Source: Alphaproteobacteria bacterium
GTDB taxonomy: Bacteria > Pseudomonadota > Alphaproteobacteria > RS24
Assembly: GCA_949498175.1 (NCBI GenBank)
Contig: CATDDF010000080.1
Span: forward strand, 1-43,939
Length of the DNA: 43,939 nt
Reading direction: 5' to 3'
Shown here: positions 14,421 through 43,220 of the stretch, piece after piece
How the letters are laid out: each line of letters begins with the position of its first letter
Numbering within the stretch: position 1 is the first letter of the stretch
The notes under the pieces: model-generated
Told to the model about the DNA's origin: nothing
The model's database searches: none
The model's input: only the letters and a program-made list of their open reading frames with translations
Translations under genes and position numbers: made by a program

Positions 14421-14432
14421 GCCACTCACAAA

Positions 14433-16823: not shown

Positions 16824-16831
16824 AACCGACC

Positions 16832-18061: not shown

Positions 18062-18078
18062 GGCTGCGCGACCTTGCT

Positions 18079-19539
18079 CTATGCGCTCACGCGCGCGACG
18101 CGAAATACTTCCGCCATGCTTGTCTCGCCGGCGGCGACTAGGGCGTGGCCGCTTGCTGCCAATAATCCGCCATTGGCAAAAGCATAAGCTTCGATTTGCT
18201 GCTCGGTCGCGCCATCGGCAATCATTTGCCGCACCGTGTCGTCAACCGACAATAATTCGAATATGCCGATGCGGCCGCGATATCCGATATTTTGGCATGA
18301 TGGGCAGCCGACCGGTTTATGGCTGGCAATATCGTCGTTCTCATCCGGCACTTTGCAGTCCGGGCATAAGCGGCGCACCAGCCTTTGTGCCAGCACCAAA
18401 CGTAAGGAGGAGGATAAAAGCAACGGTTCAATGCCCATATCCATTAGTCGTGTCACGGCGGCGGCGGCGCTGTTTGTGTGTACGGTTGAGAGCACGACAT
18501 GGCCGGTCAGGCTGGCTTGCACGGCAATCTCGGCGGTCTCTTTATCGCGAATTTCACCGACCATAACGGTGTCGGGATCTTGGCGTAAAATAGATCGCAA
18601 GCCGTCGGCAAAAGTCATACCGATTTTCGGATTGACCTGTGTTTGACTGATACCGTGCAGCGCATATTCGACCGGGTCTTCTACTGTCATGATATTGCGC
18701 GAAGTATCATTCATCAGGCTCAGTGCGGAGTAGAGCGTGGTTGTTTTGCCCGATCCGGTCGGGCCGGTGACCAAAATAATGCCGTTGGGTTCGCGCAGCG
18801 CACCCTCAAACTGCGCCCGCATATCAGCCGCCATGCCCAAATCACCCAGTCCGAAAAACGCATTATCCTTGTCGAGCAAGCGCATCACCACGCGTTCGCC
18901 ATAGCGAATAGGCAGGGTAGAGACGCGCACATCGAAAACCTTGCCACCCAAAGTCAGTGACAAACGCCCATCTTGCGGCAAGCGCTTTTCGGCAATATCA
19001 AGGCGCGACATGACTTTGATGCGAGATACGAGATAGGGTGCAAGCTTTGGCGACAGCGAAGCAATTTCTTGCAACATGCCGTCAATACGCAGACGCACCA
19101 GCACATTGTTCTCAAACGGCTCCAAATGTACATCTGACGCGCCGCTCCTTACCGCTTCACTGAGCAAGCTGTTAAGCAGGCGAATGACCGGCGCATCATC
19201 ATCACCGGCGAGCAAATCGGCGGCATGCTCGACGCCTTGGACAACGGCATCGAAATCATCCTCGATACGGTCAGCATCCGCTTGCTCGCTATCTTCCTCG
19301 AAGGAACGGCGGGCATAAAGCTCCGACAGCAAATCGTCAAACTGTTCCTGGGAGACTTCTTCAATCAAGGCAATATCGTAATTGCGCGCCACTTCGACAA
19401 TCATATTGCGGTTGGCTGCGTCGCCAATATGTAGTGTTACACCCTTATCGGTTTGGCTGAGCGCAAGACCAAACTCGCGTGCAAAGCGATAAGGCAATTT
19501 TACCGCTTCGACCGAGGTCATGTTTTCAGCGGCGCTCAT
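18079..19539 (-). CDS. gspE: T2SS secretion ATPase GspE
   Basis: A 486-residue cytoplasmic hexameric ATPase that drives pseudopilus assembly. Walker A GPTGSGKTTT lies near residue 260, Walker B/Asp box around DTVMVGEIRD (about 325), and HVVLSTVHTN is the His box. A four-cysteine zinc motif (CPDC...CPSC, 16 residues between) lies in the C-terminal domain. The N-terminal part binds GspL. The ATG at 19539 overlaps the gspD stop by 14 bases, with GGCGAAGG upstream; an internal ATG at 19521 is less likely. Confidence 0.96.
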   Translation of the reverse strand: MSAAENMTSVEAVKLPYRFAREFGLALSQTDKGVTLHIGDAANRNMIVEVARNYDIALIEEVSQEQFDDLLSELYARRSFEEDSEQADADRIEDDFDAVVQGVEHAADLLAGDDDAPVIRLLNSLLSEAVRSGASDVHLEPFENNVLVRLRIDGMLQEIASLSPKLAPYLVSRIKVMSRLDIAEKRLPQDGRLSLTLGGKVFDVRVSTLPIRYGERVVMRLLDKDNAFFGLGDLGMAADMRAQFEGALREPNGIILVTGPTGSGKTTTLYSALSLMNDTSRNIMTVEDPVEYALHGISQTQVNPKIGMTFADGLRSILRQDPDTVMVGEIRDKETAEIAVQASLTGHVVLSTVHTNSAAAAVTRLMDMGIEPLLLSSSLRLVLAQRLVRRLCPDCKVPDENDDIASHKPVGCPSCQNIGYRGRIGIFELLSVDDTVRQMIADGATEQQIEAYAFANGGLLAASGHALVAAGETSMAEVFRVARVSA

Positions 19540-21445: not shown

Positions 21446-22269
21446 TATTGACTCGCCACTAATGTGCGGAGTGCGGTCACGTCAAAACTGCGTGTTAGAC
21501 GTTGGTCGGCGCGGGCAATGTCGAGCGTAATGCTGGTTGCATTTTGCACTTGCGAAAATGCGCTTTCCAATCGTGCCCGCGAATTGACCGGTTTGCCGTT
21601 TATCGCACTAATAATATCGCCCGATACAAGGCCGGCGGCTTGAAGCAGGGCATCGTTTCCACTACCGCCAATGCTCACACCCGCGTCGCTGAATTGTAAA
21701 TCAAGCGCGCTGAACAGGCTTTGATCAAAAGATGTGCGCGATAGCAAGCGTCGCGTTCGGCGCTGTTTTGCATCAAATAGATAAATCGCGCCAGTTTCCT
21801 CATTTGCGATAACTTCTATACGGTCACTGAAAATACCGGTCACTCTGACACCGTTTTTTAGCCTTTCGCCGTGGCTGATCGATTGCTGGGCACCACCGTT
21901 GAGCGAAATAATGGCCGAGCCGCGCCCATTGGCCGTCGGGCGGGTGCCGAATAATTTGATTTTTGCATTGATTTCCGTCACCGCTGCGCTTTGGCTGCCA
22001 TCCAGTGTTGAAAAGAATACTTGCTCGGCAAGGCCTTTGTAATTGGCCTCGGTTGCCAATGTTTTCTGCGGGCCGGTTGGCGATATCATCGCTTGATGCG
22101 GCGGGGTGATGAATGTGAGAAAAATGGATGACGCGCTATAGGCAATCAAGGTAATCAGCCCCGCTTCCAACAAAAAGCGTGGCAGTTTTGCAAACACACT
22201 ATCGCGCAATCGCGATATCAGCGCATTGACGATCTGGCGTAAGAACTCTGTCCGTTGAGATACTGACAT
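21445..22269 (-). CDS. gspC: T2SS protein GspC with PDZ domain
   Basis: A 274-residue bitopic protein linking the inner-membrane platform to GspD. A membrane helix lies near residues 35-55, the periplasmic HR domain at about 80-165 (GVRVTGIFSDRIEVIAN segment), and a C-terminal PDZ domain at about 185-265 (LQAAGLVSGDIISAINGKPVNS). It is the first gene of the operon, with GTGGAG five bases before the ATG. The 122 bases upstream hold the promoter, but no reliable -35/-10 pair was seen. Confidence 0.9.
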   Translation of the reverse strand: MSVSQRTEFLRQIVNALISRLRDSVFAKLPRFLLEAGLITLIAYSASSIFLTFITPPHQAMISPTGPQKTLATEANYKGLAEQVFFSTLDGSQSAAVTEINAKIKLFGTRPTANGRGSAIISLNGGAQQSISHGERLKNGVRVTGIFSDRIEVIANEETGAIYLFDAKQRRTRRLLSRTSFDQSLFSALDLQFSDAGVSIGGSGNDALLQAAGLVSGDIISAINGKPVNSRARLESAFSQVQNATSITLDIARADQRLTRSFDVTALRTLVASQ

Positions 22270-28543: not shown

Positions 28544-30370
28544 ATGCAATTTACCGAACAAAAAATTACCACCGGAAAATATCTTTTCCGTTTTTTGAAA
28601 TTTCTCGCAACGCCCGGCGCAATCGGGCGCTTGAAGTCGCTTCTGACAACTCGCCCAAGCGATGAAGTGTCGATGATTGATTTCTTGGAGCGCCATGCAG
28701 TTGAACGCCCTGATGCGATAGCCGTCAAATATGAAGACCAAAAAATCAGCTGGGCTGAGTTGAACGCCAGAGCCAACCAAATGGCACATTATTTTCAGTC
28801 ACGCGGCGTGAAATATGGCGATAGCGTTGCGCTGAATATTGAAAATCGGCCGGAATTATTGGTCGCCGTATCGGCTTGTTTGAAGCTCGGCGCGATTGCA
28901 GGCATGGTCAATACGGGCCAAACCAATGAAGCGCTGGCGCATAGCTTGCGGCTTATCGAGCCGTCACTGATAGTTGTCGGTTCTGAATGTCTCGGCAATA
29001 TGGAAACGGTGAGCGATATATTGGAAGAGCAGCACGCCGATAAATTGCTTTATGTCGCCGATGCCGGACACGCCGGCCCACCTCAAAATTATCAAGATTT
29101 GATGGCTTTGGTGGCTGACCAGCCGGTCGAAAACCCTGTGCCAAGCAAAGTGCTGACGCTGGGCACGCCGATTTACTATATTTTTACTTCGGGCACGACA
29201 GGCTTGCCTAAAGCCAGTATCACCACCCATATGAAAGTGTTCCGTGCCGGTTTGCAGTTTGGCGTGAATGTGATGTCGCTCGGGCCGGATGATACATATT
29301 ATTGCGCCTTGCCGCTTTATCACTCAAATGCATTGGTTGTCGGCTTCGGCTCTTGTTTGTGCGGCGGCGCGACATTGGCCTTGCGCCGTAAGTTTTCGGC
29401 CAGTCAATTTTGGGAAGATTGCATTAAATTTGAGGCGACAGCCGCCATTTATATCGGCGAATTGCTGCGCTATTTGCTGGCTCAGCCGGAACGCGAAAGC
29501 GACCGCAGCCACAATGTGACCCGTGTTTTGGGCAATGGTTTGCGCCCCGATATTTGGATGGAATTCAAAAACCGTTTCGGCATTTCGCGTGTGCATGAAT
29601 TTTACGGCGCGTCGGAAGGCAATACGGGCTTTGTCAATATTTTCAATTTCGACAAGACGGTCGGTTGGTCGCCGCAAGTCGGCAAAGCATGGAATGTGGT
29701 TGCATATGATGTCGATGCCGATGAACCCATTCGGGGTGATGATGACTATATGAAAAAATTACCGGTTGGCGAAACGGGTCTTCTGATTATGCGTATTAAC
29801 GAGCAAAATCCGTTTGACGGTTATACCGACGCACAAGCCAGTGAAAAGAAAATCCTTCGCGATGTATTTGAGAAAGGCGATGCTTGGTTCAATTCCGGCG
29901 ATTTGGTGATCTTGCAAAAGCACGGTCACATTCAGTTCGGCGACCGCATTGGTGACACGTTCCGCTGGCAAGGTGAAAACGTCGCTACTACGGAAGTAGA
30001 AAGCGTGATTATGAAATGGCCCGAAATTGAAGACGCTGTGGTTTACGGCGTTACTGTGCCGGGCCGCGACGGGCGCTGTGGAATGTTGTATCTGACGCAA
30101 AAACAAGCCGGTGAGATTGACCTTAACGGTCTGGCCGCGCATATGCGCGAAAACCTGCCGCCTTATGCCGTGCCGCGCTTTATCCGTATCGGACAAAAGG
30201 TCGATGTTACCGGCACTTTTAAGTTTCAGAAATCGAAGTTGAAAAACGCCGCTTATAATGTCGAGGAAGTGGAAGACGATTTGTTCTTATTAGCGCGCGA
30301 TGCTGATGGCGTTGAACCGATGACAGCGGATTTGCAAGCCAAAGTGGATGAGGGCGCGATACGTCTCTAG
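28544..30370 (+). CDS. Long-chain acyl-CoA synthetase, FATP/FadD6-like
   Basis: A 608-residue adenylating enzyme of the FATP (solute-carrier-27-like) branch, activating long or very long chain acids. The P-loop is YIFTSGTTGLPKAS; FYGASEGN, NSGDLVILQKHGHIQFGDRIGDTFRWQGENVATTEVE and the C-terminal FKFQKSKLK region are characteristic. It is the last gene of the plus-strand run starting at 25512. The stop TAG overlaps the stop of the convergent ROK kinase gene, sharing a CTAG. A second acyl-CoA synthetase, of a different subfamily, lies at the left edge of the window. Confidence 0.94.
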   Translation: MQFTEQKITTGKYLFRFLKFLATPGAIGRLKSLLTTRPSDEVSMIDFLERHAVERPDAIAVKYEDQKISWAELNARANQMAHYFQSRGVKYGDSVALNIENRPELLVAVSACLKLGAIAGMVNTGQTNEALAHSLRLIEPSLIVVGSECLGNMETVSDILEEQHADKLLYVADAGHAGPPQNYQDLMALVADQPVENPVPSKVLTLGTPIYYIFTSGTTGLPKASITTHMKVFRAGLQFGVNVMSLGPDDTYYCALPLYHSNALVVGFGSCLCGGATLALRRKFSASQFWEDCIKFEATAAIYIGELLRYLLAQPERESDRSHNVTRVLGNGLRPDIWMEFKNRFGISRVHEFYGASEGNTGFVNIFNFDKTVGWSPQVGKAWNVVAYDVDADEPIRGDDDYMKKLPVGETGLLIMRINEQNPFDGYTDAQASEKKILRDVFEKGDAWFNSGDLVILQKHGHIQFGDRIGDTFRWQGENVATTEVESVIMKWPEIEDAVVYGVTVPGRDGRCGMLYLTQKQAGEIDLNGLAAHMRENLPPYAVPRFIRIGQKVDVTGTFKFQKSKLKNAAYNVEEVEDDLFLLARDADGVEPMTADLQAKVDEGAIRL

Positions 30371-31263
30371 GAATTATGGGTCGGCCATAGCCAAGCGGCG
30401 CCGCGCACACCGCTTGCATCGCCATGCTTGTTCTTCACCAGCCGCGTCTCGATGACATCTGAGAAAATATAAGCGTCCCAAATTTCGGGAATATGGGTGT
30501 AAAGCGCGTCGACATTGGACAAGCCGCCGCCCAGAACAACCACTTCGGGGTCAAGCAAATTAATGACGGCGCCCAAAGCGCGCGCCATGCGGTCGCATAA
30601 GCGTTCAAAGCTCGCTTTGGCGGCATCGCTGTCGCTGGCGATGATTTCTTCAGCTGTCAGCTTCTCGCCGGTTACGGCTTCATGGTCGCGCGCAAAACCG
30701 GAGCCGGAAATCCAGACCTCATTACAGCCATGCCGCCCGCAATAGCAGGGTGGGCCGGGCAGTTCATCGGCGCGCGGCGCAGCCAGCGGATTATGCCCCC
30801 ATTCACCGCCAATGCCGTTAACGCCATTTTGTAATTTGCCGTCAAACACCAAGCCGCCGCCGCAACCCGTGCCAACAATCACGCCGAATACGGACTGCAC
30901 GCCGGCACCTGCGCCATCAATGGCTTCGGATAGGGTAAAGCAATTGGCATCATTGGCGATGCGCACCGGTTGTGCCAATCGGCTTTCCAAGTCTTGTTGT
31001 ATGTCGCGCCCGTTTAAACTTTGTGTATTGGAATTACGCACCAAACCGGTTTTCGGCGAGAGGGATCCCGGCATACCAATGCCGACCGTTATCTCGTCTG
31101 TGCTGTGGCCACCGGCCTCAGAAACCAGTTCGGCAATCGTATCAATAATGGCTTTATAGTCGTCTGCCGGAGTCGGGCGCCGGTCGCGCCAGGCAATCTC
31201 TCCCGCATCGTCCAGCAATACGGCTTCCATTTTTGTGCCGCCAAGGTCAAGGCCGAAGCGCAT
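30367..31263 (-). CDS. ROK family sugar kinase, Mak-like
   Basis: A 298-residue cytoplasmic kinase phosphorylating a hexose with ATP. The phosphate motif LDLGGTK is at residues 5-11, the catalytic Asp105 is in NDANC, and the zinc site is His157 in EWGHNPL with Cys173, Cys175 and Cys180 in CYCGRHGC. The overall form (NDANCFTLSEA, GTGCGGG, HGDASGVRGAAWLWP) is closest to the Mak fructo/mannokinases, but such enzymes can also use glucose. It is the last gene of the glycosidase operon, coupled to the flavin monooxygenase by TGATG. It would feed the released sugar into glycolysis or Entner-Doudoroff. Confidence 0.93.
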   Translation of the reverse strand: MRFGLDLGGTKMEAVLLDDAGEIAWRDRRPTPADDYKAIIDTIAELVSEAGGHSTDEITVGIGMPGSLSPKTGLVRNSNTQSLNGRDIQQDLESRLAQPVRIANDANCFTLSEAIDGAGAGVQSVFGVIVGTGCGGGLVFDGKLQNGVNGIGGEWGHNPLAAPRADELPGPPCYCGRHGCNEVWISGSGFARDHEAVTGEKLTAEEIIASDSDAAKASFERLCDRMARALGAVINLLDPEVVVLGGGLSNVDALYTHIPEIWDAYIFSDVIETRLVKNKHGDASGVRGAAWLWPTHNS

Positions 31264-32342
31264 CAGATTTCCAAAGGCCCGTGGTCAAGCTTCGGCAGCA
31301 CATATTTACCGAACAAATCGCATTCATCTTGGTGCGGATAGCCCGATAAAATAAACGCTTCAATACCAAGCGCGCGATAGGCGTTGATTTTGGCAAGCAC
31401 TTGGTCCGGATCACCGACAATGGCTGCGCCACAGCCGGAACGGGCCCGCCCGACGCCGGTCCAGAGATTGTCTTCGACATAATCACCCGTGCCGGCGGCA
31501 TTGGCAGCGTCGCGCATTTCGGCCTGACGGCGCACGCCGTAAGAAGCGCTGTCCAAAGAGCGATTGCGGATTTCTTCACCGATATCGTCATCAAGTTTGC
31601 TGACCAGCGTGTCAGCGGCAGCGCGCGCCTCTTCTTCTGTTTCGCGCACAATCACATGCGCGCGATAGCCGAATTTCAGCGTGCGATTATAGCCGTCAGC
31701 GCGTTGGCGCATGTCTTCGAGAATATCGGCAACTTTATCCATCGTGTCGGGCCACATGAGAAACACATCAGCTTCCTGTGCCGCCACATCGCGTGCCGCA
31801 GGTGACAGGCCACCAAAGTAAAAGGGCGGGCATGTGCCGGAAACGGTCTGCATGCGCGGCGGCTCAAGGTCTAGCTGAATGTGTTCACCATCCATTTTGA
31901 CCGCCTCGCCATTGAGGAATTGCCGCAGCGCTTGCATAATCTCGCGCGTGCGTTGATAGCGCGGGCTACCATCAAGCATCTGCCCCGGCATGTCAGAAGA
32001 GATAATGTTAATGGTCAGGCGACCGCCGAGCATCCGGTCGAGCGTTGCCAATTGCCGTGCCAATTGTGGCACCCACATTTCACCGCAGCGCACGGCGACC
32101 AGCAGACGCATTTTCTCCAATAGCGGTGCAATGCCTCCGGCAAAGCTGATTGAATCCATGCCCAGCGTATAGCCTGAGGGCAGCAAAATATTATCAAAAC
32201 CGTTTTTCTCGGCTGTCAGCGCAATATCGCGGCAATGCGGCCAGCTGGCTTTCAGGCTCTGGTCTTCGACGCCGAGGAATTGATAATCATCGTCGCACAG
32301 GGCGGAGAACCAACTGATTTCGGCTTTTGGATGGTCTGTCAT
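31263..32342 (-). CDS. SsuD-like LLM-class flavin-dependent monooxygenase
   Basis: A 359-residue TIM-barrel FMNH2-dependent monooxygenase. It resembles alkanesulfonate monooxygenase SsuD throughout: Arg227 and His229 (GYRAHVIVRET), Arg301 (GVGRARSG) and Tyr335 (LSGYPH) correspond to SsuD active-site residues; the position of SsuD Cys54 is Leu60 here. SsuD-type enzymes split a C-S bond to release sulfite and an aldehyde. Lying inside an operon with a GH4 glycosidase, aldo/keto reductase and sugar kinase, it may be a sulfosugar (sulfoquinovose) monooxygenase as in the sulfo-SMO pathway. No flavin reductase gene is adjacent. The substrate is an inference; a non-sulfonate substrate remains possible. 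Confidence 0.9.
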   Translation of the reverse strand: MTDHPKAEISWFSALCDDDYQFLGVEDQSLKASWPHCRDIALTAEKNGFDNILLPSGYTLGMDSISFAGGIAPLLEKMRLLVAVRCGEMWVPQLARQLATLDRMLGGRLTINIISSDMPGQMLDGSPRYQRTREIMQALRQFLNGEAVKMDGEHIQLDLEPPRMQTVSGTCPPFYFGGLSPAARDVAAQEADVFLMWPDTMDKVADILEDMRQRADGYNRTLKFGYRAHVIVRETEEEARAAADTLVSKLDDDIGEEIRNRSLDSASYGVRRQAEMRDAANAAGTGDYVEDNLWTGVGRARSGCGAAIVGDPDQVLAKINAYRALGIEAFILSGYPHQDECDLFGKYVLPKLDHGPLEI

Positions 32343-32350
32343 TTGTATTC

Positions 32351-33265
32351 CTAAGGTAGGGGCAGGCCTTCACTGGCTTCAATCAGCGCATAGACATCTT
32401 GCCGCGTCAAGCATACAGACAAGGCTTGCGTCACCGCTTTGATGCGGTCGAGGTTTTGCGCGCCGATAATGGCAATCGGCGCGGCCGGATGAGCCAGCAC
32501 AAAAGCCAGCGCAATACCTGCGCGGTCGGTATTTTCGCGCGCCGCCAATTTATCGATTTTTGCCATTAATTCAGATTGCATATTGTCACCTGAAATAAGT
32601 TTGCCACCGGCCAAAGGCGACCAGGCGAGAAAGGCCGTGTCATTGGTCATGCAGCGATCAAGCGAGCCGTCGCGCAGCATGGTCAATGCGGCAAGCGAAT
32701 ATTCCGATTGCAGGGAGACGAGCGGGGCTTTCAGGAATTGGCGCAGCGCGTCTTCTTGCGCTTGCGTGTAATTGGAAATGCCGACCATGCCTATTTTGCC
32801 GGCTTGCACCAACCCATCAAGCGCGGCGGCCGTTTCAGCCGGATGGGCGAACATATCGGGGCGATGGATTTGATACAGGTCAATATGGTCGGTTTGCAGG
32901 CGCGTCAGCGAGGCATCGACAGCGGCGTTTAAATAATCGGCACCGGCAACATAGGGAATACCCGGAATAATGCCGCCCTTACTGGCCAACATCATGCGGT
33001 CGCGCAAGGTTTTATCGGCTGCCAGCACTTTGCCGAGTAACATCTCGCTCTCACCGAAAGCCTGACCGCCCCAATCAAGGCCGTAAACATCGGCATTGTC
33101 GATAAGGGTGAGGCCATTATCGAGTGCTGTTTCAATGCGCTGTGTTGCATCGGCGACATTATCACCGACCAAACGCCAGCAGCCGAAAGCCAGCGGGCCG
33201 ACTTGTTTGCCGCCAAGTTTGCGCGGTGCGCCATTGACCAAGTTTTCTTGTGTCCCAAAACTCAT
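32351..33265 (-). CDS. Aldo/keto reductase
   Basis: A 304-residue NAD(P)H-dependent (beta/alpha)8 reductase. The catalytic tetrad is Asp56 and Tyr61 (IDNADVYG), Lys96 (LASKGG) and His134 (YQIHRPD); ISNYTQ and IIGAQN belong to the cofactor site. The real start is the ATG at 33265, which overlaps the stop of the preceding gene by four bases (ATGA); a longer frame to 33535 is the shadow of that gene. Eight bases from the flavin monooxygenase gene, it could reduce the aldehyde made by it, e.g. 6-oxo-glucose to glucose. Other carbonyl substrates are possible. Confidence 0.93.
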   Translation of the reverse strand: MSFGTQENLVNGAPRKLGGKQVGPLAFGCWRLVGDNVADATQRIETALDNGLTLIDNADVYGLDWGGQAFGESEMLLGKVLAADKTLRDRMMLASKGGIIPGIPYVAGADYLNAAVDASLTRLQTDHIDLYQIHRPDMFAHPAETAAALDGLVQAGKIGMVGISNYTQAQEDALRQFLKAPLVSLQSEYSLAALTMLRDGSLDRCMTNDTAFLAWSPLAGGKLISGDNMQSELMAKIDKLAARENTDRAGIALAFVLAHPAAPIAIIGAQNLDRIKAVTQALSVCLTRQDVYALIEASEGLPLP

Positions 33266-34326
33266 AATCCGACCTCCGTCATGTCGACACGACGTTTTTC
33301 TGCCGCTGCCATTTGCGCCGCTACCCCCATAGCCACGGCACGATGACCGTCCAGCGCGGTTACCGGCACCGCCATATCGCCATGAATGCAAGCCAGAAAG
33401 GCTTTGTTCTGATGATAGGTTGCGCCCGAATGATAACCGGCATTCAAGATTTCGTCCGGCACATGAATATCCTCTTGCGCCACCTCCCATGTTTCGCGAT
33501 TGCCGTGTGTAACGATGTTTTGCGGCAGCAAGCATTCGACCTTTGCCCTATCGCCAATCGCCGCAAGTTCCTCGCTATGGCGCGAGCCTTCTGCAAACAT
33601 GCATAGATCGAGCATGGCACGCGCGCCATTGGCAAAATCAAACACGACATAGGCATTGTCCCAAATATCGGGGGTCTGGCCATGATATTTTTCGTCCAAA
33701 TGATTGACGTTTTGACCGCCCGAAGCGATTACGCCGGTCGGTTCACTGCCGATGATGAAGCGCATCAGATCGAAAAAATGGCAGCATTTTTCAACCAGTG
33801 TGCCGCCCGTATTGCGGTTAAAGCGGTTCCAATCGTCCACTTTCGGCAAAAACGGAAACCGATGTTCGCGAATGGCCAACATTTGAATTTGCCCGATATC
33901 CCCGCCATGCACACGCGAAATCATATTGTCGAGCGCCGGTTTGAAGCGATATTCCATGCCGACTTGGAAAATAATCCCATTATGGCCGACGCGCTGCATG
34001 ACTTTCTGCGTGTCGTCCAGATTGGTGCATAGCGGCTTTTCGCATAATATCGGCTTACCCGCTTCAAGGGCACTGTCGAGCACGTCAATATGATGAAAAT
34101 TCGGTGTCGCAATGACCAGCGCATCAGGGCCGTCATCGCCCAATAGGGTTTCAAAATCATCGGTCAGTGTCGGTGTGCCGTCCGCCATCTCCGCGGCTTT
34201 GGCCAGCATGGCCGCGTCCGTATCGGCCAGCGCCGTCACTTGCGCCCCGTCGAGCAAATTGAAATTTTGAATATGCTCTTGCCCCATCATACCGGTGCCG
34301 ATAATGCCAATGGTGATGTCGCTCAT
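33262..34326 (-). CDS. Gfo/Idh/MocA family oxidoreductase
   Basis: A 354-residue NAD(P)-dependent sugar oxidoreductase. The Rossmann motif is GIIGTGMMGQEHI and the conserved EKP is in LCEKPLC; the C-terminal region has WNRFNRNTGGTLVEKCCHFFDLM, the usual active-site helix with His. Family members oxidise a sugar hydroxyl or act as NAD-dependent glycosidases (GH109, GH179, GH188). It overlaps the AKR start by four bases and its own ATG follows the stop of the hydroxylase-like gene without a gap. In this context it may oxidise or cleave a glycoside; the exact role is not visible. Confidence 0.9.
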   Translation of the reverse strand: MSDITIGIIGTGMMGQEHIQNFNLLDGAQVTALADTDAAMLAKAAEMADGTPTLTDDFETLLGDDGPDALVIATPNFHHIDVLDSALEAGKPILCEKPLCTNLDDTQKVMQRVGHNGIIFQVGMEYRFKPALDNMISRVHGGDIGQIQMLAIREHRFPFLPKVDDWNRFNRNTGGTLVEKCCHFFDLMRFIIGSEPTGVIASGGQNVNHLDEKYHGQTPDIWDNAYVVFDFANGARAMLDLCMFAEGSRHSEELAAIGDRAKVECLLPQNIVTHGNRETWEVAQEDIHVPDEILNAGYHSGATYHQNKAFLACIHGDMAVPVTALDGHRAVAMGVAAQMAAAEKRRVDMTEVGL

Positions 34327-34956
34327 TTAACCCTCAAAACCTGACAGCTTTTTTGCTGTCGCGCTTTTTTCAACGTCGCCGGTAGTTTTCCATGTGCCAA
34401 GCATAATATCGCCCAGCCCGTTGGTGATGCCCCAATTATAATTTTCATTGTGGAAGTGGTGGCGCATATGTGCCTCGCGCAGACCGCGTCCCCAGCCGGT
34501 CAGCGGCTTATAGCTCTGGGTATGATGGGCCAAATGCACCCATTCATAAATCAGATAATAGGCCAATGAGGCGAGGAGCGGCATCAATACGTTCTCATGC
34601 GGCTGCCCGACCAACCAGACCATCAGTGCATAGCTGAGATAAAGCTGAATAAACATAATGATGATTGCGCTGATAGGCGCGAATTGCAGATCGCGTCGCT
34701 CGGGGTGCAAATGGTGGCCATGATGCAGGCGAATTTGATAATTGCGCCAAAAGCCCGGCGTGTCGGTCAGCGGGCTGTGCAATGTGTATTTATGCGTTAC
34801 CCATTCGAAAAACGGCGCGCTGGCTATCACCAGCAGCACCCATGGCCAGCTGTGCCATAGCGCCAATTCTTCAATGGCATAGGCGCAGAAAAACAGCGCG
34901 GCGAATAAAAATTGTACCGAGCCGTGGGTCACATAATTACGGAAAATATCTCGCAT
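34327..34956 (-). CDS. Fatty-acid hydroxylase / sterol desaturase family membrane protein
   Basis: A 209-residue integral membrane di-iron enzyme. The histidine clusters are HKYTLH, HHGHHLHP, HLAHH and HMRHHFHNENYNWG, as in the FA_hydroxylase superfamily. Four to five membrane segments. It would hydroxylate or desaturate an acyl chain or isoprenoid with O2. It is the second gene of the glycosidase operon, 29 bases after GH4, with its stop directly adjacent to the next ATG. Its presence among soluble sugar enzymes suggests a lipid-linked sugar as common substrate, or simple cotranscription. Confidence 0.87.
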   Translation of the reverse strand: MRDIFRNYVTHGSVQFLFAALFFCAYAIEELALWHSWPWVLLVIASAPFFEWVTHKYTLHSPLTDTPGFWRNYQIRLHHGHHLHPERRDLQFAPISAIIIMFIQLYLSYALMVWLVGQPHENVLMPLLASLAYYLIYEWVHLAHHTQSYKPLTGWGRGLREAHMRHHFHNENYNWGITNGLGDIMLGTWKTTGDVEKSATAKKLSGFEG

Positions 34957-34985: not shown

Positions 34986-36314
34986 TTACCTTAATTCGGG
35001 AATGGCGCCGCCATGTGCCTCCAGCAATTCATCAACCAGCGCCCAGATTTGGTCGAGGGTCAATTCAGCCGCCGTGTGCGGGTCGAGCATGGCGGCGTGA
35101 TAAACATGCTCGCGCTTGCCGCTTGTCAGCGCTTCGACGGTTAATTGCTGGACATTGATATTGGTCTGCATCAGCGCCGCAAGTTGTGGCGGCAGCGTGC
35201 CGACTTTCTGGGGCTGCAGCCCGTTACCGTCGACCAGACAGGGCACTTCGACACAGGCATTTTCGGGCAGATTGCCGATCAGGCCGTGATTGGCGACATT
35301 GCCATGAATTTTATCGCTTTTGCCAAGCGCGCAAGCGGCGATAATGCGCGCGGCATATTCGACCGATTTTTCACACACCAAGCTGTCGCCTTGTGTCAAA
35401 GCCGCTTCTTGCGCTTGCCATTCGGCTATTTGCGCTTCGCAGCGGCGCGGATATTCATCGAGCGGAATTTCATATTTATCTATTAATTCGGGGTGCCTCG
35501 CATTGATGAAATAGGGCGTGTATTCGGCGAAGTGCTCTGAGCTTTCAGTGACGAAATAGCCAAGCCTTTGCAGCATGTCATAGCGCACATGATTGGCGCA
35601 ATCTTCCCAGCCGCGACCATAGCCACGTGTTTGTGCCAGTTTTCTAAGGCGCGGGTAAAGGTCTTCCATGCGCCCGTCAGCATGGCGCTTTTCAAAGCGC
35701 GTATAAAAAGCGACGTGATTGATGCCGGCGCAATCATAATCAATGGTTTGCGGGTCTTCGCCAAGATCGCGCGCCAAATCAATCGCCGTGCCCTGCACGG
35801 AATGACACAGCCCGACATAATTCAATTGTGGCGCAAGTTTTGACAAGGCGAGGCAGTTAATCGCCATCGGATTGACATATTGCAAGAGCAGCGCATCAGG
35901 GCAGCATTCGGCCATATCATCAGCAATTTCTCTGAGCACCGGCACAGTGCGCAAGCCGCGCATAATGCCGCCAATACCGAGCGTATCGCCAATGGTTTGG
36001 CGCAGCCCGTATTTTTTCGGAATATCGAAATCAATAATGGTAGCCGGCTCATAACCGCCGACTTGAATCATGGTGATGACGAAAGTTGCATTTTGCAACG
36101 CCTCGCGCCGTTTGAGCGTGGCTGAAATTTTCGTTGTGGTATGGGTGGTTTCGGCTATGCGCTGCGCCACTTTTTCCGAGGTGGCGAGCCGTGCCGCGTC
36201 AATATCATGCAAGGCGATATGCGCGGTCTCAAGCCCCGGCTCGAGCACAATATCGGTAACGATATTCTTCATGAATACGGTGCTGCCTGCGCCGATAATG
36301 GCAATTTTGACCAC
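34986..36314 (-). CDS. GH4 family NAD+/Mn2+-dependent alpha-glycosidase
   Basis: A 442-residue cytoplasmic glycosidase of family 4, which works by oxidising C3 of the sugar and eliminating the aglycone. The NAD motif IGAGSTVFMKN is at residues 7-17, Asn148 in VNPM, the metal ligand Cys170 in GLCHSVQG and His200 in INHVAF. The CHSVQG form is that of the alpha-galactosidase/alpha-glucosidase (MelA-like) group; GH4 also includes 6-phospho and glucuronide enzymes. It is the first gene of a six-gene operon and divergent from GH3. No phosphotransferase genes are present, so an unphosphorylated substrate is likely. Confidence 0.93.
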   Translation of the reverse strand: MVKIAIIGAGSTVFMKNIVTDIVLEPGLETAHIALHDIDAARLATSEKVAQRIAETTHTTTKISATLKRREALQNATFVITMIQVGGYEPATIIDFDIPKKYGLRQTIGDTLGIGGIMRGLRTVPVLREIADDMAECCPDALLLQYVNPMAINCLALSKLAPQLNYVGLCHSVQGTAIDLARDLGEDPQTIDYDCAGINHVAFYTRFEKRHADGRMEDLYPRLRKLAQTRGYGRGWEDCANHVRYDMLQRLGYFVTESSEHFAEYTPYFINARHPELIDKYEIPLDEYPRRCEAQIAEWQAQEAALTQGDSLVCEKSVEYAARIIAACALGKSDKIHGNVANHGLIGNLPENACVEVPCLVDGNGLQPQKVGTLPPQLAALMQTNINVQQLTVEALTSGKREHVYHAAMLDPHTAAELTLDQIWALVDELLEAHGGAIPELR

Positions 36315-36402
36315 GCCTACTCCTTTGACTTGTCGCTGCCTTAACCCTTGCCTAGACTGTCATAAATGCAGTGTTTTGTGCAATGCGGTAGGGGAGTGGG
36401 CA
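36315..36402. promoter_or_regulatory. Divergent promoter region between GH4 operon and GH3
   Basis: The 88-base gap must drive both sugar transcripts. A TTGACT at 36325-36330 on the plus strand is the only -35-like element; no properly spaced -10 was found. No regulator gene lies nearby. GGGGAGTGGG before the GH3 ATG is its Shine-Dalgarno sequence. Confidence 0.45.
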
Positions 36403-38805
36403 ATGCAGCATCCATATGATTTTGAAAGCGAAGCGACCGGCTTGGTGGCGCGTATGTCGGTTGATGAAAAAGCCTCGCTCATGTCGGGTTCCAGCTTTTG
36501 GCATTTGCAGCCGCTTGAGCAATATGACCTGCCGCCGATTATGGTATCGGACGGGCCGCATGGCCTTAGAAAACAGGGTGACCAGACCGACCATATGGGC
36601 CTGACGGCCTCCGTTCCGGCGACATGTTTTCCAACCGCTGTTACACTGGCATCAAGCTGGGACAGAGAGCTTATCGGCGAAGTCGGTGCCGCCATTGGGC
36701 GCGAATGTCAGGCTGAGGGTGTATCGGTATTGCTGGCGCCGGGCGTCAATATTAAGCGCAGCCCGTTATGCGGCCGCAATTTTGAATATTATTCAGAAGA
36801 CCCGTTTATGGCAGGCGAGATGGCGGCGGCATTTATCAGTGGCGTGCAATCAACCGGCACGGGCACCAGCCTCAAACACTTCGCGGTCAATAATCAGGAA
36901 GCACAACGCATGGTTGTGGACACGCTGGTTGATCGACGGACATTGTTTGAGATTTATCTACCCGCCTTTGAAGCGGCGGTGACGCAAGCACAGCCGTGGA
37001 CGGTGATGTGTGCCTATAATCGCTTGAACGGCATTTACTGCTCTGAGCATGAAGAATTGTTAACCGGCATTTTGCGCGACCGTTGGGGCTTTAAAGGCTT
37101 GGTGGTGACCGATTGGGGTGCGGTTAATGAACGCCCGCGCGGAATCGCTGCCGGATTGGACTTGGAAATGCCGAGCAGTGGTGGCGTCAATGATCGGTTG
37201 GTTGTAGCGCAAGTGAAAGACGGCAGCTTTAATGAAGAGCATCTCAACCGCGCCGCCCGCCGCGTGACGCAGATGATATTGGCGTCGAAAAACAATGCCG
37301 CGCCGCAAGCCGTCGATTTTGACGCGCATCACGCGCTGGCCCGCAGGGCGGCGGCGGAAGGCGCAGTCTTGCTCAAAAATGATGGGCTTTTGCCGCTTAC
37401 CGATGATAAATCAGTGGCGCTTATCGGTGCTTTTGCCGACGCACCGCGCTTTCAGGGGGCGGGTTCCTCACAAGTCAATGCGGCCAAGCTCGACAAGCCG
37501 CTTGATGCTTTTGTTTCGCGATTGGGCACCGCCAATGTCACTTATGCGCAAGGCTTTGATGCCGAATTGGCGGAAGCCGATCAAGAACTGATTGCCGAAG
37601 CGGTGGCGGCCGCTCAGAAAGCCGAAATTGCCGTTATCATGGCCGGTCTGCCTCCTTTATTTGAGGCGGAAGGGTTTGACCGCACGCATTTGCGCCAGCC
37701 CGAACAAATTGAAAATCTGATTGCCGCCGTGGCCGCGGCGAATGAAAACACGGTGGTGGTGCTGTCCAATGGCGCGCCGATGGAAATGCCGTGGCTTGCA
37801 GATGCTCCCGCTGTGCTTGAAATTTATTTGGCGGGGCAGGCCGGTGCACACGCATTGGTTGATTTGCTGTATGGCGACATCAATCCGAGCGGTAAGCTGG
37901 CGGAAACCTTTCCTATGGTATTGGCTGATTGTCCGGCGCAGGAAAACTTTGCCAATCACAAGCGCCAATTGGTCTATCGCGAGGGCTTGAATATCGGCTA
38001 TCGCCATTTCACCAGCCATGATGCGCCGATGCTGTTTCCGTTCGGCCATGGCTTGAGTTACACAAAATTCACCTATAGCGATGCAGCGTTGTTGGCTGAT
38101 TGGTCAGCCGATAGCGAGACTGTGGAGGTGGCGGTGACTGTCACCAATAGCGGCGATAGGGCGGGCGCCGAAGTGGTGCAGCTTTATGTGCGCGATGTCG
38201 AAGCCACCGCCTATCGCCCCGATCGCGAATTGAAAGCATTTGAAAAAATAACGCTCGCGGCGGGGCAATCGCAGCAAGTGCGGTTTACGCTCAATAGGCG
38301 TGCTTTTGCTTATTTCGATGTCACGCAAGATGCATGGGATGTCGAGCCGGGGGCATTTGAAATTCTTTTTGGGTCTTCGTGCGTCGATATTCACCAGAAG
38401 CTGTCGGTCAATTTACCCGATGGGAGCGGTCGCAATTCTCAACCCTTGCGCGAAGCGCCTTATGTGATGATGGAAGATACGCAATTGGCCGCTTTGGGTT
38501 TGACGGTAACGCCGCCTGAAAGCATTAAGCCCTATCACGCCAATACGACGCTGGCCGATATTCGCGGCCATTGGCTCGGCAAGCGTGTGTGCGATGCGGC
38601 GCTGGAGATGGCGGCAAAAACCATGGGCAAACGGCAGGAAACGCCGGTGGCGATGAAAATGCGCGAGGAAATGATTATGTCGCTGCGCCTCAAGACCGTG
38701 CAAATCATGTCGGCCGGTGCACTTTCGCCAAAGCGCTTCGACTTGCTGCTTTTGGCCCTCAATAATCGCTGGCTGCGCTTTTTGGCGCGGCTGCTGCGCC
38801 GCTAG
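36403..38805 (+). CDS. GH3 family beta-glucosidase, cytoplasmic, with C-terminal extension
   Basis: An 800-residue glycoside hydrolase of family 3. The N-terminal barrel has PPIMVSDGPHG, GRNFEYYSEDP and the KHFAVNNQE segment; the nucleophile is Asp237 in VVTDWGAV and the acid/base Glu423 is in EAEGFDRTHL. The second domain and a fibronectin-III-like domain (about 560-650) follow. The last 135 residues or so are not part of the usual architecture. No signal peptide, so it acts on an imported glycoside. The ATG at 36403 follows GGGGAG; the frame extends to 36070 but that part overlaps the divergent GH4 gene. Its stop shares a CTAG with the convergent fusion gene. Confidence 0.92.
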   Translation: MQHPYDFESEATGLVARMSVDEKASLMSGSSFWHLQPLEQYDLPPIMVSDGPHGLRKQGDQTDHMGLTASVPATCFPTAVTLASSWDRELIGEVGAAIGRECQAEGVSVLLAPGVNIKRSPLCGRNFEYYSEDPFMAGEMAAAFISGVQSTGTGTSLKHFAVNNQEAQRMVVDTLVDRRTLFEIYLPAFEAAVTQAQPWTVMCAYNRLNGIYCSEHEELLTGILRDRWGFKGLVVTDWGAVNERPRGIAAGLDLEMPSSGGVNDRLVVAQVKDGSFNEEHLNRAARRVTQMILASKNNAAPQAVDFDAHHALARRAAAEGAVLLKNDGLLPLTDDKSVALIGAFADAPRFQGAGSSQVNAAKLDKPLDAFVSRLGTANVTYAQGFDAELAEADQELIAEAVAAAQKAEIAVIMAGLPPLFEAEGFDRTHLRQPEQIENLIAAVAAANENTVVVLSNGAPMEMPWLADAPAVLEIYLAGQAGAHALVDLLYGDINPSGKLAETFPMVLADCPAQENFANHKRQLVYREGLNIGYRHFTSHDAPMLFPFGHGLSYTKFTYSDAALLADWSADSETVEVAVTVTNSGDRAGAEVVQLYVRDVEATAYRPDRELKAFEKITLAAGQSQQVRFTLNRRAFAYFDVTQDAWDVEPGAFEILFGSSCVDIHQKLSVNLPDGSGRNSQPLREAPYVMMEDTQLAALGLTVTPPESIKPYHANTTLADIRGHWLGKRVCDAALEMAAKTMGKRQETPVAMKMREEMIMSLRLKTVQIMSAGALSPKRFDLLLLALNNRWLRFLARLLRR

Positions 38806-40781
38806 TCGCGCAAATCGAGCCAGTTAACCTGTTCCGCCGACAGGCTGATCTGCGCTGCATCAAGGCTGTCTTGTAGTTGCATCGGGTTGCGTGGGCCGAC
38901 CAAAGCACAGCATGGGAAGGGCTGGTTGACGACATAAGCAAAGGCAATTTGAATGGCGCTGACGCCCATTTCTTCCGCCAGCTGAAAAGCGCGGCGGCGG
39001 CGTTCGAGATTTTCTTCAGAGCCCCAAACGCGTTGCATTTCGTCATCAGTGGGGTCAGCCCCGTGCCGCGTTGCGGCCAGACCTTTGCCTTCCCAATCGA
39101 GGAAAAAGCCGCGTGCTTGCGCCGACCACGGCAAAAGCGGAAACTTATGAGCGCTGTGCCAGTCGCGGAAATCATCGGTCGAGCTGGCAAGGCAGCCGGG
39201 CCAGACCGGATCTTCCATGCGCGCCAGCGAGAAATTATTGCTCAATAGCGAGAAGCCTTGCAGCCCATTGGTGGCCGCATAGGCATTGGCTTCGTCGACC
39301 CGCGCAGCTGTCCAGTTTGAGCCGCCAAACAGCTTCATGCGTCCGGCATCAACCTCTCGGTTCAGCGCATCAATCCACTCCGACACCGGCACGGCAGGGT
39401 CGTCGCGGTGTAAGCAATAAAGGTCGAGATAGTCGGTTTTAAGCCGCTCGAGCGATTGGTCAAGCTGGCGCGATACGGTTTCCGGCGCGCATTCCGGCGG
39501 GTGCGCGCCTTTGCTCAGCACCACCAATTCATCGCGCACGCCGCGTGCGGCCATCCATTCGCCGAGTAGGGCTTCCGAGTGGCCGTCGGAATAAATAAAG
39601 GCGGTGTCGAAGCAATTTCCACCGCCTTCGAAAAATGCGTCACCCATCGCCGCCATGGTCGGCGCATCGATTTGATTATCCGTGCCCAACACAATTTTCG
39701 AAACCGGTTTATCGAGGCCGTCCAGCGTCACATGCGGCACGCTGCCATTGGCAACATGTTTCAGCGCGGCCCCGTGAAAGCCTGTCGCGCCCAGCACGTC
39801 GGCGGCATAACGCACGCCTCCCGCTTCGCGCCAACGGTCGAGCCAATAGGCCGTGTTTATGGAGAAGTCCGGCGTGACCAAGTCTGAGTTTTGCGCCTTG
39901 CGGGCAATCAAATCGCCGACATGATCGGCCTCAACTGCATAAAGCGGGCGCATATCATCACTTTTGTGAACCGTCTCGCTGCCGTCCTTATCGGTGATGA
40001 CAATATGATTATTTTCCGGCCCCGGATGCCAGGGCTGGTTGATTTTCAAAGTGCCGTTATCACCCTCAACGGTAATGTGCCATTCCAGTTCAGTATCTAT
40101 GGCGCAGTGCAAATGCGCCTCAAACCCGTCATAGGCCAGCACGGCCTTTGCTTCGGCGTCAGCGCCCGATGGTGCCAGCCTTGCTTCGCCGCTCAAGCCA
40201 TTGGGTTCGCCGATGAAATAGCGCGCCGCGGTGAGCGGGTAAATGCCGATATCAAGTATCCCGCCACCGGCGCGATCAATATTATAAAGCCGATGTTCCG
40301 GCGTGAAAGGAAAGGCAAAACCGAAGCTCGATGAAAAGCCGATAATTTTGCCAATCGCGCCGTCATCAATCAGACTTTTGGCCAAATGCATGCGCGGGTG
40401 CATGAGATACATGAGCGCCTCGACCAGCAGCACATTGCGCCGTGCTGCCGTGCCGTAAAGGTCAAGCACTTCGCCTTGATTGAGGCCGAGCGGCTTTTCA
40501 CACAAGGTCGGCTTGCCGGCAGCAAGGCATTTATGCGCCCACTCAATATGGCTGTCATGCGGCGTGGCGATATAAATCGCATCAATGTCATCGCGCGCAA
40601 TCAATGCGTCATAGGAATTGACGGCGTCGCCGCCATGCTTGGCGCAAAAAGCTTCAGCTTTCGCCAAATCGCGGCTTGCAGCGGCGGCCAAAACACCGCT
40701 ATGGCTGTGTTTCAAATCACTGGCGAATTGAGCGGCTATATTGCCGGTGGCGAGAATGCCCCAGCGGATTTTATCGGACAC
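38802..40781 (-). CDS. Gfo/Idh/MocA oxidoreductase-aldo/keto reductase fusion
   Basis: A single 659-residue reading frame with two complete enzymes. Residues 5-320 are a Gfo/Idh/MocA oxidoreductase (GILATGNIA Rossmann motif, CEKPLG at 94-99, DIGIYPL at 177-183). Residues 348-655 are an aldo/keto reductase with its tetrad Asp392, Tyr397, Lys424 and His458 intact. The start is a GTG at 40781 with a strong AGGAGG. Both domains use NAD(P), so they could pass a ketosugar or recycle a bound cofactor pool. The gene begins 12 bases after the CYP153 stop and converges on GH3. No break in either domain suggests decay. Substrate unknown; a two-step epimerisation or glycoside oxidation is a guess. Confidence 0.93.
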   Translation of the reverse strand: MSDKIRWGILATGNIAAQFASDLKHSHSGVLAAAASRDLAKAEAFCAKHGGDAVNSYDALIARDDIDAIYIATPHDSHIEWAHKCLAAGKPTLCEKPLGLNQGEVLDLYGTAARRNVLLVEALMYLMHPRMHLAKSLIDDGAIGKIIGFSSSFGFAFPFTPEHRLYNIDRAGGGILDIGIYPLTAARYFIGEPNGLSGEARLAPSGADAEAKAVLAYDGFEAHLHCAIDTELEWHITVEGDNGTLKINQPWHPGPENNHIVITDKDGSETVHKSDDMRPLYAVEADHVGDLIARKAQNSDLVTPDFSINTAYWLDRWREAGGVRYAADVLGATGFHGAALKHVANGSVPHVTLDGLDKPVSKIVLGTDNQIDAPTMAAMGDAFFEGGGNCFDTAFIYSDGHSEALLGEWMAARGVRDELVVLSKGAHPPECAPETVSRQLDQSLERLKTDYLDLYCLHRDDPAVPVSEWIDALNREVDAGRMKLFGGSNWTAARVDEANAYAATNGLQGFSLLSNNFSLARMEDPVWPGCLASSTDDFRDWHSAHKFPLLPWSAQARGFFLDWEGKGLAATRHGADPTDDEMQRVWGSEENLERRRRAFQLAEEMGVSAIQIAFAYVVNQPFPCCALVGPRNPMQLQDSLDAAQISLSAEQVNWLDLRD

Positions 40782-40793
40782 TAAGGCCTCCTA

Positions 40794-42041
40794 TTAACGG
40801 CGGGTGACTTGCACTTTCACGTCGGTATAGCCGTTAACGAAGTTCGATTTCAAGCGTGTCGGTTCTTTGACCAACTCGATTTTTTCGAACTTTTCAAGGA
40901 TTTGCTGCCACAAAATACGCAATTGCAATTCAGCGACACGCAACCCCATGCAACGGTGAATACCGAAACCAAAGGATAGATGATTGTTTCCATTGGGGCG
41001 ATCAAATTTAACAATGCGCGGGTCGTCAAACACCTCTTCATCGTGATTGCCCGAATAATACCACATAATGACTTTATCGCCTTTTTTGATGGTCTTGCCG
41101 TGCATCTCGACATCTTCCAAAGCGGTGCGGCGCATATGCGATAGTGGGGTCTGCCAGCGAATGACTTCGGCCACCATTTTATCAATCAGTGAAGGGTCGG
41201 CCTGCAATTTGGCAAACTCATCGGGGAATCGGTTCCACGCATTGATGCTGGCCGACATGGAATTACGCGTTGTGTCATTGCCGCCGACAATCAGGAGCAG
41301 CAAATTGCCGAGAAAGTTCATCGCGTCCATATCTTTGGTTGCGGGGTCGCGTGCCATCATGGAAACAAGGTCGAAACTGGGCGCGCCATTGGCGCGTTTT
41401 TCCCTTAGCGTCGTAAAATATTCGAGGCAATCCATGAGATGTTGCACGCGCTGCTCTTGACCGGGGAAATGGTCAGAGCCTTCGGTCGCTGTTGTCATGT
41501 CAGACCACAAAGTCAGCAAATGACGGTCTTCAAATGGGAAGTCGAATAAGGTTGCCAGCATTTGTGTCGTCAGTTCAATTGACACATGGTCAACCCAATT
41601 AATCGTTTCACCTTCAGGAATGGCATCCAACACATTGCCAGTGCGCTGCCAAATCAAATCACGAAAACTGTCCAATGCAGGCGGTGAAGCAATGGGCTGC
41701 ACAGATTTACGGATGGGCGCATGGTGGGGCTGATCTTTGGTAATAAAGGCGGATATTTCAACGCCTTCGACAGGGGGACGCACAATCGCGTCATCGATTT
41801 GAATGCCGCCATAAACATCAGAAGAAGAAAAGCGTTTATGATCGGTATCTACAGCCACGCAGTCTTTGTAGCGCGTGACATGCCACATCGGGCCGAAATG
41901 CTCGTTTTCGGCGAGGTGAATCGGGTCTTCTTCGCGCAAAATTTTGAATGCTTCCAGCACATCTTCGCTGGCATAAAGTTCCGGCCGCGCCATATCGAAG
42001 CCATCGGCCGGGATTTGCGAAAATTCATCAGCTGCACTCAT
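40794..42041 (-). CDS. Cytochrome P450, CYP153 family (alkane/fatty-acid omega-hydroxylase)
   Basis: A 415-residue soluble P450 that very closely follows CYP153: VSIELTTQMLATLFDFP, the I-helix LLIVGGNDTTRNSM, IRWQTPLSHMRRTALED, and the haem loop LSFGFGIHRCMG with Cys364. CYP153 enzymes hydroxylate terminal carbons of medium-chain alkanes, alcohols and fatty acids. The ATG at 42041 is chosen because GGGAGGG precedes it by five bases; a start at 42077 lies across an inverted repeat. Ferredoxin and reductase genes, usually beside CYP153, are not in the window. It is followed after 12 bases by the fusion gene and preceded by a desaturase. Confidence 0.94.
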   Translation of the reverse strand: MSAADEFSQIPADGFDMARPELYASEDVLEAFKILREEDPIHLAENEHFGPMWHVTRYKDCVAVDTDHKRFSSSDVYGGIQIDDAIVRPPVEGVEISAFITKDQPHHAPIRKSVQPIASPPALDSFRDLIWQRTGNVLDAIPEGETINWVDHVSIELTTQMLATLFDFPFEDRHLLTLWSDMTTATEGSDHFPGQEQRVQHLMDCLEYFTTLREKRANGAPSFDLVSMMARDPATKDMDAMNFLGNLLLLIVGGNDTTRNSMSASINAWNRFPDEFAKLQADPSLIDKMVAEVIRWQTPLSHMRRTALEDVEMHGKTIKKGDKVIMWYYSGNHDEEVFDDPRIVKFDRPNGNNHLSFGFGIHRCMGLRVAELQLRILWQQILEKFEKIELVKEPTRLKSNFVNGYTDVKVQVTRR

Positions 42042-42050
42042 ATCGCCCTC

Positions 42051-42072
42051 CCAAGCTTTTTTTAAAGCTTGG
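42051..42072. promoter_or_regulatory. 9-bp perfect inverted repeat before the CYP153 gene
   Basis: CCAAGCTTT (42051-42059) and AAAGCTTGG (42064-42072) with a 4-base loop lie between the desaturase stop and the P450 start. The arm nearest the gene overlaps the Shine-Dalgarno sequence by two bases, so a stem in the mRNA could influence translation, or the DNA site could be an operator. Confidence 0.55.
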
Positions 42073-42111
42073 CTCATTTAAAGGCGACTGGCAAGCCGTC
42101 AAGCGACAAAA

Positions 42112-43017
42112 TCAGTGGGCGTGCTCACGATCCAGCAAATCACATTTGCGCGCTTCCAAAATAGGATAAAGCTCGCGCAAAGCGGCCGGTGTTTTATCGA
42201 GCGGAATGCGCGGGTGCAAATGGTGCACAATATGTGCGGTCATGGCCAGCGAACTCCAGACACCAAGCCAGCTTTTAAAGCCACGCGTGTCTTTATAGCG
42301 ACCCGTCTCATGGCCGGGATAATGCGGCAGCCATGACAAGTAAACGCGAATGTAAATACTTGCCAATTTCAGCGGCAACCACCACAAAAGCAGGGCTTCC
42401 AGAGCATACCCATAAGCGGCAAAGGTGAATAATATGGCCATATGCGTCAGCAAAATGGCAATTTGCTCAATATAGGCGCGTTTGGCCTCCGGCGTTCCAA
42501 GACGCTCAAGGCAGGCGGCATAAGACTCGCTGTCTTTTGAATTCGGCTGAAATGAATTGATATTGAGTTTGATGGTCTGCCAGAGATTCTCACCTTTATT
42601 GAAGTTATGGTCGGGGTCCAATTCCGGCGTATTTGTGTGCTTGTGATGCTCCAAATGGGTCAGCCGCAAAATGCGATAGCCATAGGCCAGCGGAATAAGC
42701 GACAAATGGCCGATGGCTTCATTAAGCCAGCGCAATTTTTCGCCCGGACGGGCGTAAATATCGTGCTGTGCCTCGTGGCTCGGCAAATAAGAAAGGGTGA
42801 TATTGACCGTGGCGATGATGAAGCCAAGCCAGAGCGGTATCGTATTCGTAAGGACCAACGGCCAAAGCGCCAGCCAGCAAGTCAGGTTCAAAACCGGCCA
42901 TGCCACCATCGGCAGGGACAGCTTGCCCATATATTTGCGGGCAATTTCACGTTCCATTTTTGTCAGTTCGGCATCGCTGAGCCCGCTGACATCATAATCT
43001 GCTATTTTTTTGCTCAT
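42112..43017 (-). CDS. Fatty acid desaturase
   Basis: A 301-residue integral-membrane di-iron desaturase. The three histidine boxes are HEAQHD (around residue 85), HLEHHKH (around 125) and HIVHHLHP (around 265). Several membrane helices separate them. The start at 43017 is preferred because GGGAG lies six bases upstream and the ATG overlaps the preceding stop by four bases; an ATG at 43023 touches the Shine-Dalgarno. It would introduce a double bond or hydroxyl into an acyl chain. It is 70 bases upstream of CYP153 on the same strand. Confidence 0.9.
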   Translation of the reverse strand: MSKKIADYDVSGLSDAELTKMEREIARKYMGKLSLPMVAWPVLNLTCWLALWPLVLTNTIPLWLGFIIATVNITLSYLPSHEAQHDIYARPGEKLRWLNEAIGHLSLIPLAYGYRILRLTHLEHHKHTNTPELDPDHNFNKGENLWQTIKLNINSFQPNSKDSESYAACLERLGTPEAKRAYIEQIAILLTHMAILFTFAAYGYALEALLLWWLPLKLASIYIRVYLSWLPHYPGHETGRYKDTRGFKSWLGVWSSLAMTAHIVHHLHPRIPLDKTPAALRELYPILEARKCDLLDREHAH

Positions 43018-43220
43018 ATCCATCTCCCAAATCGCAGAGCGAAAACGCCGTATAAGCCACCGAAAATCATGCAGGCGGTGTAAATCTGGCCGGATGTCGC
43101 TTGGATAGGCACCAGACTATGCAATGGCGTGCGTAAATACAATTCAGCCAGCACCGGCCCCAAAAAGCCGATACCGAACCAAACCGGCATCATTTTTAGT
43201 ATTCTTGCAACGATCTCCAT
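43014..43220 (-). CDS. Small two-helix membrane protein
   Basis: A 68-residue hydrophobic protein with two probable membrane helices (near residues 12-30 and 45-62). No family recognised. Its stop overlaps the desaturase start by four bases (ATGA), which argues that it is really translated. The Shine-Dalgarno is weak. It may assist the desaturase or be an independent membrane protein. Confidence 0.6.
   Translation of the reverse strand: MEIVARILKMMPVWFGIGFLGPVLAELYLRTPLHSLVPIQATSGQIYTACMIFGGLYGVFALRFGRWI

Follow-up and report, generated by a model that had tools for sequence, protein, structure and literature searches.

The Gfo/Idh/MocA–aldo/keto reductase fusion of a marine PS1-group bacterium, an ordinary member of a widespread family

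The window analyzed here, the whole stretch of 43,939 nucleotides from an alphaproteobacterium, contains an open reading frame in which two redox enzymes, a member of the Gfo/Idh/MocA family and an aldo/keto reductase (AKR), appear in a single polypeptide. This raises the question of whether such a protein is real, how unusual it is and what its two halves might do together.

The fusion gene and its two halves

The fusion gene is located at 38802..40781 on the minus strand, a strand that the initial annotation does not state. Its frame comprises 659 codons from a GTG at 40781 to the stop at 38802, and the extent of 659 aa is given by ORF reading, Pfam and full-length relatives. A Shine-Dalgarno sequence, AGGAGG (40787..40792, minus strand), lies 5 bases 5' of the GTG by direct reading. 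On the same strand, residues 1-322 form the Gfo/Idh/MocA half (39816..40781), residues 323-352 the interdomain linker (39726..39815) and residues 353-659 the AKR half (38805..39725). The halves were delimited by Pfam, motifs and fold, the linker as the part of lowest constraint in the alignment and in dN/dS. Pfam matches, all far above the cut-off, are GFO_IDH_MocA (PF01408) at residues 5-119, GFO_IDH_MocA_C3 (PF22725) at 133-245 and Aldo_ket_red (PF00248) at 365-656 (5e-50). In an alignment of 22 fused proteins and two split homologues, the AKR tetrad D392, Y397, K424 and H458 is invariant, as are the catalytic residues K96, D177 and Y181 of the Gfo half. Both motifs of this half, EKP (E95 K96 P97) and D-x-G-x-Y/H (D177 G179 Y181), are kept in every aligned row. 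ORF reading, Pfam and residue alignment thus bear out the earlier description of one uninterrupted two-domain frame with an intact tetrad.

The fusion was read from a metagenome-assembled contig, and an assembly or frameshift error could in principle have joined two genes. We regard the probability of such an artefact as practically nil: the same frame is open in numerous assemblies made independently of each other, as well as in complete replicons of rhizobia, which refutes it. The read across the linker, which the initial annotation had marked for verification, is sound, with 15 further full-length open frames of 66-91% identity from separate assemblies of three PS1/Rhodobiaceae genera. The dN/dS values are roughly 0.07-0.18 for the Gfo half and 0.04-0.13 for the AKR half, compared with about 0.12-1.1 for the linker (residues 323-352), so that purifying selection is strong on either half. 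Because full-length open homologues are present in independent assemblies, the halves are under purifying selection and the catalytic residues are invariant, the fusion is a true single polypeptide.

The N-terminal half belongs to the Gfo/Idh/MocA family, with a Rossmann domain, a C-terminal alpha/beta domain and the EKP and D-x-G-x-Y motifs, and its fold matches 3e9m with a TMt of 0.88. By sequence and fold its nearest relatives are KijD10 3-ketoreductase, dimeric dihydrodiol dehydrogenase and related proteins. KijD10, a sugar 3-ketoreductase (3rbv), and dimeric dihydrodiol dehydrogenase (2o48) share the fold and the catalytic Lys/Tyr, but they are stand-alone enzymes of about 26-28% identity which act on TDP-sugars or diols. 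The C-terminal half has the domain and the Asp-Tyr-Lys-His tetrad of the aldo/keto reductase superfamily, and DepB and AKRtyl are its nearest solved relatives. DepB, a 3-keto-DON reductase (7utf, 8hwn), resembles it in fold and tetrad, whereas it is stand-alone and reduces a mycotoxin ketone delivered by a separate enzyme. Within AKR families, identity is about 40% or more; the fusion half reaches 25-27% to DepB in a structural alignment and therefore lies outside AKR18. It is also not a SmoB, since 7bby and 7bbz, which we take to be SmoB, are outside its 60 best PDB matches.

The AlphaFold model of the fusion (mean pLDDT 83, pTM 0.85), built from a shallow alignment, suggests that the halves have a defined arrangement relative to each other. 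No solved structure spanning both halves was present among the 50 best fold matches, and a search of viral folds gave no informative match. All fused proteins have R37, at a position that is also Arg in KijD10, which was solved with NADP. In DepB, Arg290 and Gln294 favour NADPH (PMC9427786). R631 and Q635 of the fusion have the same spacing in the PS1 group, but position 635 is Glu in fused proteins outside PS1, for which the NADPH prediction is therefore weaker. These residues suggest that both halves use NADP(H) in the PS1 group. With two apparently active redox domains, the fusion is likely to be bifunctional.

Distribution and gene neighbourhoods of the fusion

The initial annotation had proposed a domain-architecture search across genomes and named as a refutation that the fusion be common and already characterised. 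The first part of this came true, as this architecture is common among rhizobia and also found in several further families, so that its rarity does not hold; a previous characterisation was not found. Three PS1/Rhodobiaceae genera (labelled g1, g4 and g6) carry the fusion in 12 of 12, 3 of 3 and 5 of 5 sampled genomes, partly as fragments at contig ends. It is absent from the sampled genomes of three other genera of the same family. The full-length architecture was also identified in some 190 plasmid records, which come almost entirely from Rhizobium and Sinorhizobium and include Phyllobacterium, and in genomes of the families f22, f49, f91, f121 and f123, as well as f234, which belongs to another class. 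Outside the Pseudomonadota, the search covered plasmid and phage-labelled records only. In the open-licence literature, where matching by family name is partly weak, no paper describing a Gfo-AKR fusion was found.

The rhizobial proteins, like WP_011649798.1 on pRL9 of R. johnstonii or the homologue on pSymA of S. meliloti, consist of about 660-680 aa and share architecture, domain order and catalytic residues with the PS1 fusion. Aligned over 99% of its length at about 39-43% identity, the PS1 fusion is a member of this rhizobial family. The fusion architecture is not new; it is widespread and already annotated, and the marine protein is an ordinary member.

In the tree of the AKR domain, the fused proteins of PS1 and rhizobia form a clade together with one split and one solo form (support 97/100), and a split form of Paenibacillus falls outside. 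One split and one solo form lie next to a fused one in this clade, which means that a fused gene was split again or that the fusion arose twice. Branches in the Gfo tree are long. The two halves are adjacent separate genes in Paenibacillus (L068) and in another alphaproteobacterium (L106), where they overlap by 4 bases and lie beside CUT1 genes. AKR homologues also occur on their own next to genes for sugar transporters or isomerases, in one alphaproteobacterium and in Enterococcus and Listeria; in the latter two they adjoin a sugar phosphate isomerase/epimerase gene.

In rhizobia, the fusion gene comes after those for the substrate-binding protein, the two permeases and the ATPase of a CUT1 sugar transporter, and the regulator is of the AraC or ROK type. 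The fusion is usually the sole enzyme of this sugar ABC operon, which supports a role in sugar catabolism by consecutive steps. In Phyllobacterium, a TIM-barrel protein follows in the operon. The f234 homologue (L097:8977-18302) lies together with a further Gfo/Idh gene, two genes resembling TIM-barrel isomerases and those of a CUT1 transporter, and this locus is a good lead to the substrate. The alphaproteobacterial homologues in f91, f121, f49 and f22 have unrelated neighbours.

The PS1 fusions differ from the rhizobial ones in their surroundings and in having Gln instead of Glu at position 635. No sugar ABC operon was found beside the PS1 fusion, and its context of CYP153, desaturase-like or acyl-CoA dehydrogenase genes is not sugar-like. 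Its one constant neighbour is a GH3 beta-glucosidase-like gene (36394..38805, plus strand), which is convergent with the fusion gene and adjoins it in all three fusion-bearing genera wherever the contig reaches. The GH3 frame is open from 36070 (911 aa), and relatives align from about codon 109. This gene is absent from the annotated rhizobial regions that were read. In g1 and g6, the gene immediately upstream of the fusion encodes a CYP153-type cytochrome P450 (40794..42077, minus strand; 3.6e-145 to CYP153A7); together with a desaturase-like gene it occupies 40794-43023 on the minus strand. Their similarity suggests alkane or fatty-acid oxidation for these two genes. A functional tie of the fusion to them was rejected, as the arrangement is not conserved in g4, where an acyl-CoA dehydrogenase gene takes their place.

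Elsewhere in the window, type II secretion genes for GspC, D, E, F, K and L were identified by Pfam at about 13419-22269 on the minus strand. A 795-aa frame at 9267-11654 (plus strand) is without any Pfam match.

The neighbouring sulfoquinovose gene cluster

The initial annotation had seen separate versions of the same two families side by side at 32351-34326 and concluded that the association recurs within 8 kb. The adjacent gene pair is real. Its members belong to the same two superfamilies as the fusion halves but are not closely related to them (29% identity over 192 aa and 37% over 106 aa). The gene taken as a separate Gfo/Idh/MocA protein (33262..34326, minus strand) is an NAD+-dependent sulfoquinovosidase of family GH188, SqgA-like by structure match (E 1e-90) and conserved residues. 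The separate AKR (32351..33265, minus strand) is SmoB-like, with 7bby/7bbz as best PDB match (4e-41). Its 394-aa frame from 33535 extends 90 codons upstream into the Gfo gene; a start at 33265, which gives a 4-base overlap, is most likely. This is a different pairing, and the association does not recur. As GH188 is a glycosidase family of the Gfo/Idh fold, the shared superfamily names are coincidental. Frames of 670-706 aa in g4 seemed to indicate that this pair is fused there, which was rejected because ORF reading gave two genes with a stop between them.

The residues described for ArSqgA of GH188 are Lys107, Tyr136, Arg166, Leu170, Lys172, Glu189, His193 and His321 (PMC10755693). All eight are identical where the gene at 33262-34326 aligns to a GH188 structure, with the numbering matched by motif. 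The fusion apparently has Tyr181 of its D-x-G-x-Y motif at the position of His193 in the EKxxH motif of ArSqgA, a judgement made from the motifs and not from a joint alignment.

Downstream on the minus strand are a SmoC-like gene for an FMNH2-dependent (alkane)sulfonate monooxygenase (31263..32342), assigned by 7olf (7e-116) and 7oh2 (8e-111), two entries named sulfonate monooxygenases, and a ROK-family sugar kinase gene (30367..31263). Sulfo-SMO clusters are recognized by SmoB and SmoC homologues within 10 ORFs (PMC13372026), and the region 30367-34326 has both within this distance. A candidate flavin reductase gene is located elsewhere in the genome (G000:C28). The sulfo-SMO-type cluster with GH188, at 30367-34956 on the minus strand, has core genes that are kept in the three genera. 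In all of these, a gene of the fatty-acid-hydroxylase superfamily (34327-34956, minus strand) is always directly upstream of GH188. A gene of GH4, an NAD+-dependent glycosidase family (34986-36314, minus strand), adjoins the cluster in only some members of genus g1. The gene content indicates that the PS1 group may use sulfoquinovose, and no paper joining the PS1 clade with sulfoquinovose was found in the open-licence literature. A sulfo-SMO cluster with GH188 in this group is relevant to marine sulfur cycling.

In g1 and g6 the fusion is within 8 kb of this cluster, and the three genera that have the one also have the other, so that the fusion could be part of the sulfoquinovose pathway and handle, for example, an oxidised sulfosugar. 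We consider this very improbable. The GH3 gene intervenes on the other strand, and the annotated rhizobial regions around the homologue are without sulfoquinovose genes. In g4, the fusion and GH3 genes do not share a contig with the sulfoquinovose genes, and for this reason the fusion probably stands outside the neighbouring pathway.

Possible functions of the fusion

The reading we prefer, with middling confidence, is a bifunctional and probably NADP(H)-linked sugar oxidoreductase, of which the halves would catalyze consecutive steps with the cofactor regenerated between them. The Gfo half would convert a ring hydroxyl of a sugar or glycoside to a keto group, or the reverse, possibly at C3 by analogy with KijD10. 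The AKR half would act one step earlier or later in this route and reduce a keto or aldehyde group there, and the cofactor used by one half would be regenerated by the other. That both act on the same substrate, as well as the direction of each half, the C3 position and the cofactor, is what we infer. Consecutive action on a sugar is plausible because unfused forms are adjacent in other bacteria and because of the sugar-transport operons in rhizobia.

Two known systems are similar in logic, and neither is related to the fusion over the whole protein. Levoglucosan is degraded by four enzymes (LgdA/B1/B2/C) through C3 oxidation, elimination, hydration and reduction, and ABC transporter genes adjoin (PMC7676230). 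This route shares with our proposal the redox chemistry at sugar C3, a Gfo/Idh/MocA reductase (LgdC) and the recycling of the cofactor. It shows that a catabolic pathway can complete a cofactor cycle by oxidising at C3 and reducing at a later step. It differs in having four separate enzymes and in that its reductase is Gfo/Idh/MocA and not AKR. The reticuline epimerase REPI/STORR of opium poppy is a natural fusion with a C-terminal NADPH-dependent AKR which carries out two sequential redox steps (PMC10813097). It shows that epimerase activity can arise from an AKR joined to an oxidising domain, although the N-terminal half of REPI is a cytochrome P450 and its substrate an alkaloid. In a bolder version of the consecutive-step reading, the fusion would be a sugar epimerase that is redox-neutral and self-contained: the Gfo half would oxidise and the AKR half would reduce from the opposite face, with one recycled pool of NADP(H) and kinetic channelling of the keto-sugar. 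It would then be, by analogy, the nicotinamide-only counterpart of REPI. We regard this version as decidedly unlikely.

Since NADPH-linked members of both families are often reductases, two reductions are also possible. The fusion would then use NADPH in both halves on two carbonyls of one compound, like a dicarbonyl or a deoxyosone sugar, and would serve detoxification or salvage instead of an epimerisation or relay. The nearest solved relatives include the NADPH reductases KijD10 and DepB, and the Arg/Gln signatures of the PS1 proteins fit this as well. The rhizobial operons, however, resemble dedicated sugar uptake, and the Gfo/Idh/MocA family also holds many dehydrogenases, so we keep the double reduction as a tentative possibility. 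Somewhat less probable, and in our view unlikely, is that the fusion only fixes the stoichiometry or co-expression of two activities at separate points of a pathway, with no direct transfer between the active sites. The weakly constrained linker is in line with this, and AKR homologues alone beside sugar transporter or isomerase genes imply that an AKR can work without its partner. Against it, the two halves are found together repeatedly, as fusions and as neighbouring genes, and the pTM of 0.85 suggests, from a shallow alignment, that the halves are placed in a defined way.

The fusion links a widespread rhizobial family of fused oxidoreductases to marine bacteria of the PS1 group. If the substrate is solved once, the result would annotate the whole family, including a sugar uptake operon on many rhizobial plasmids.
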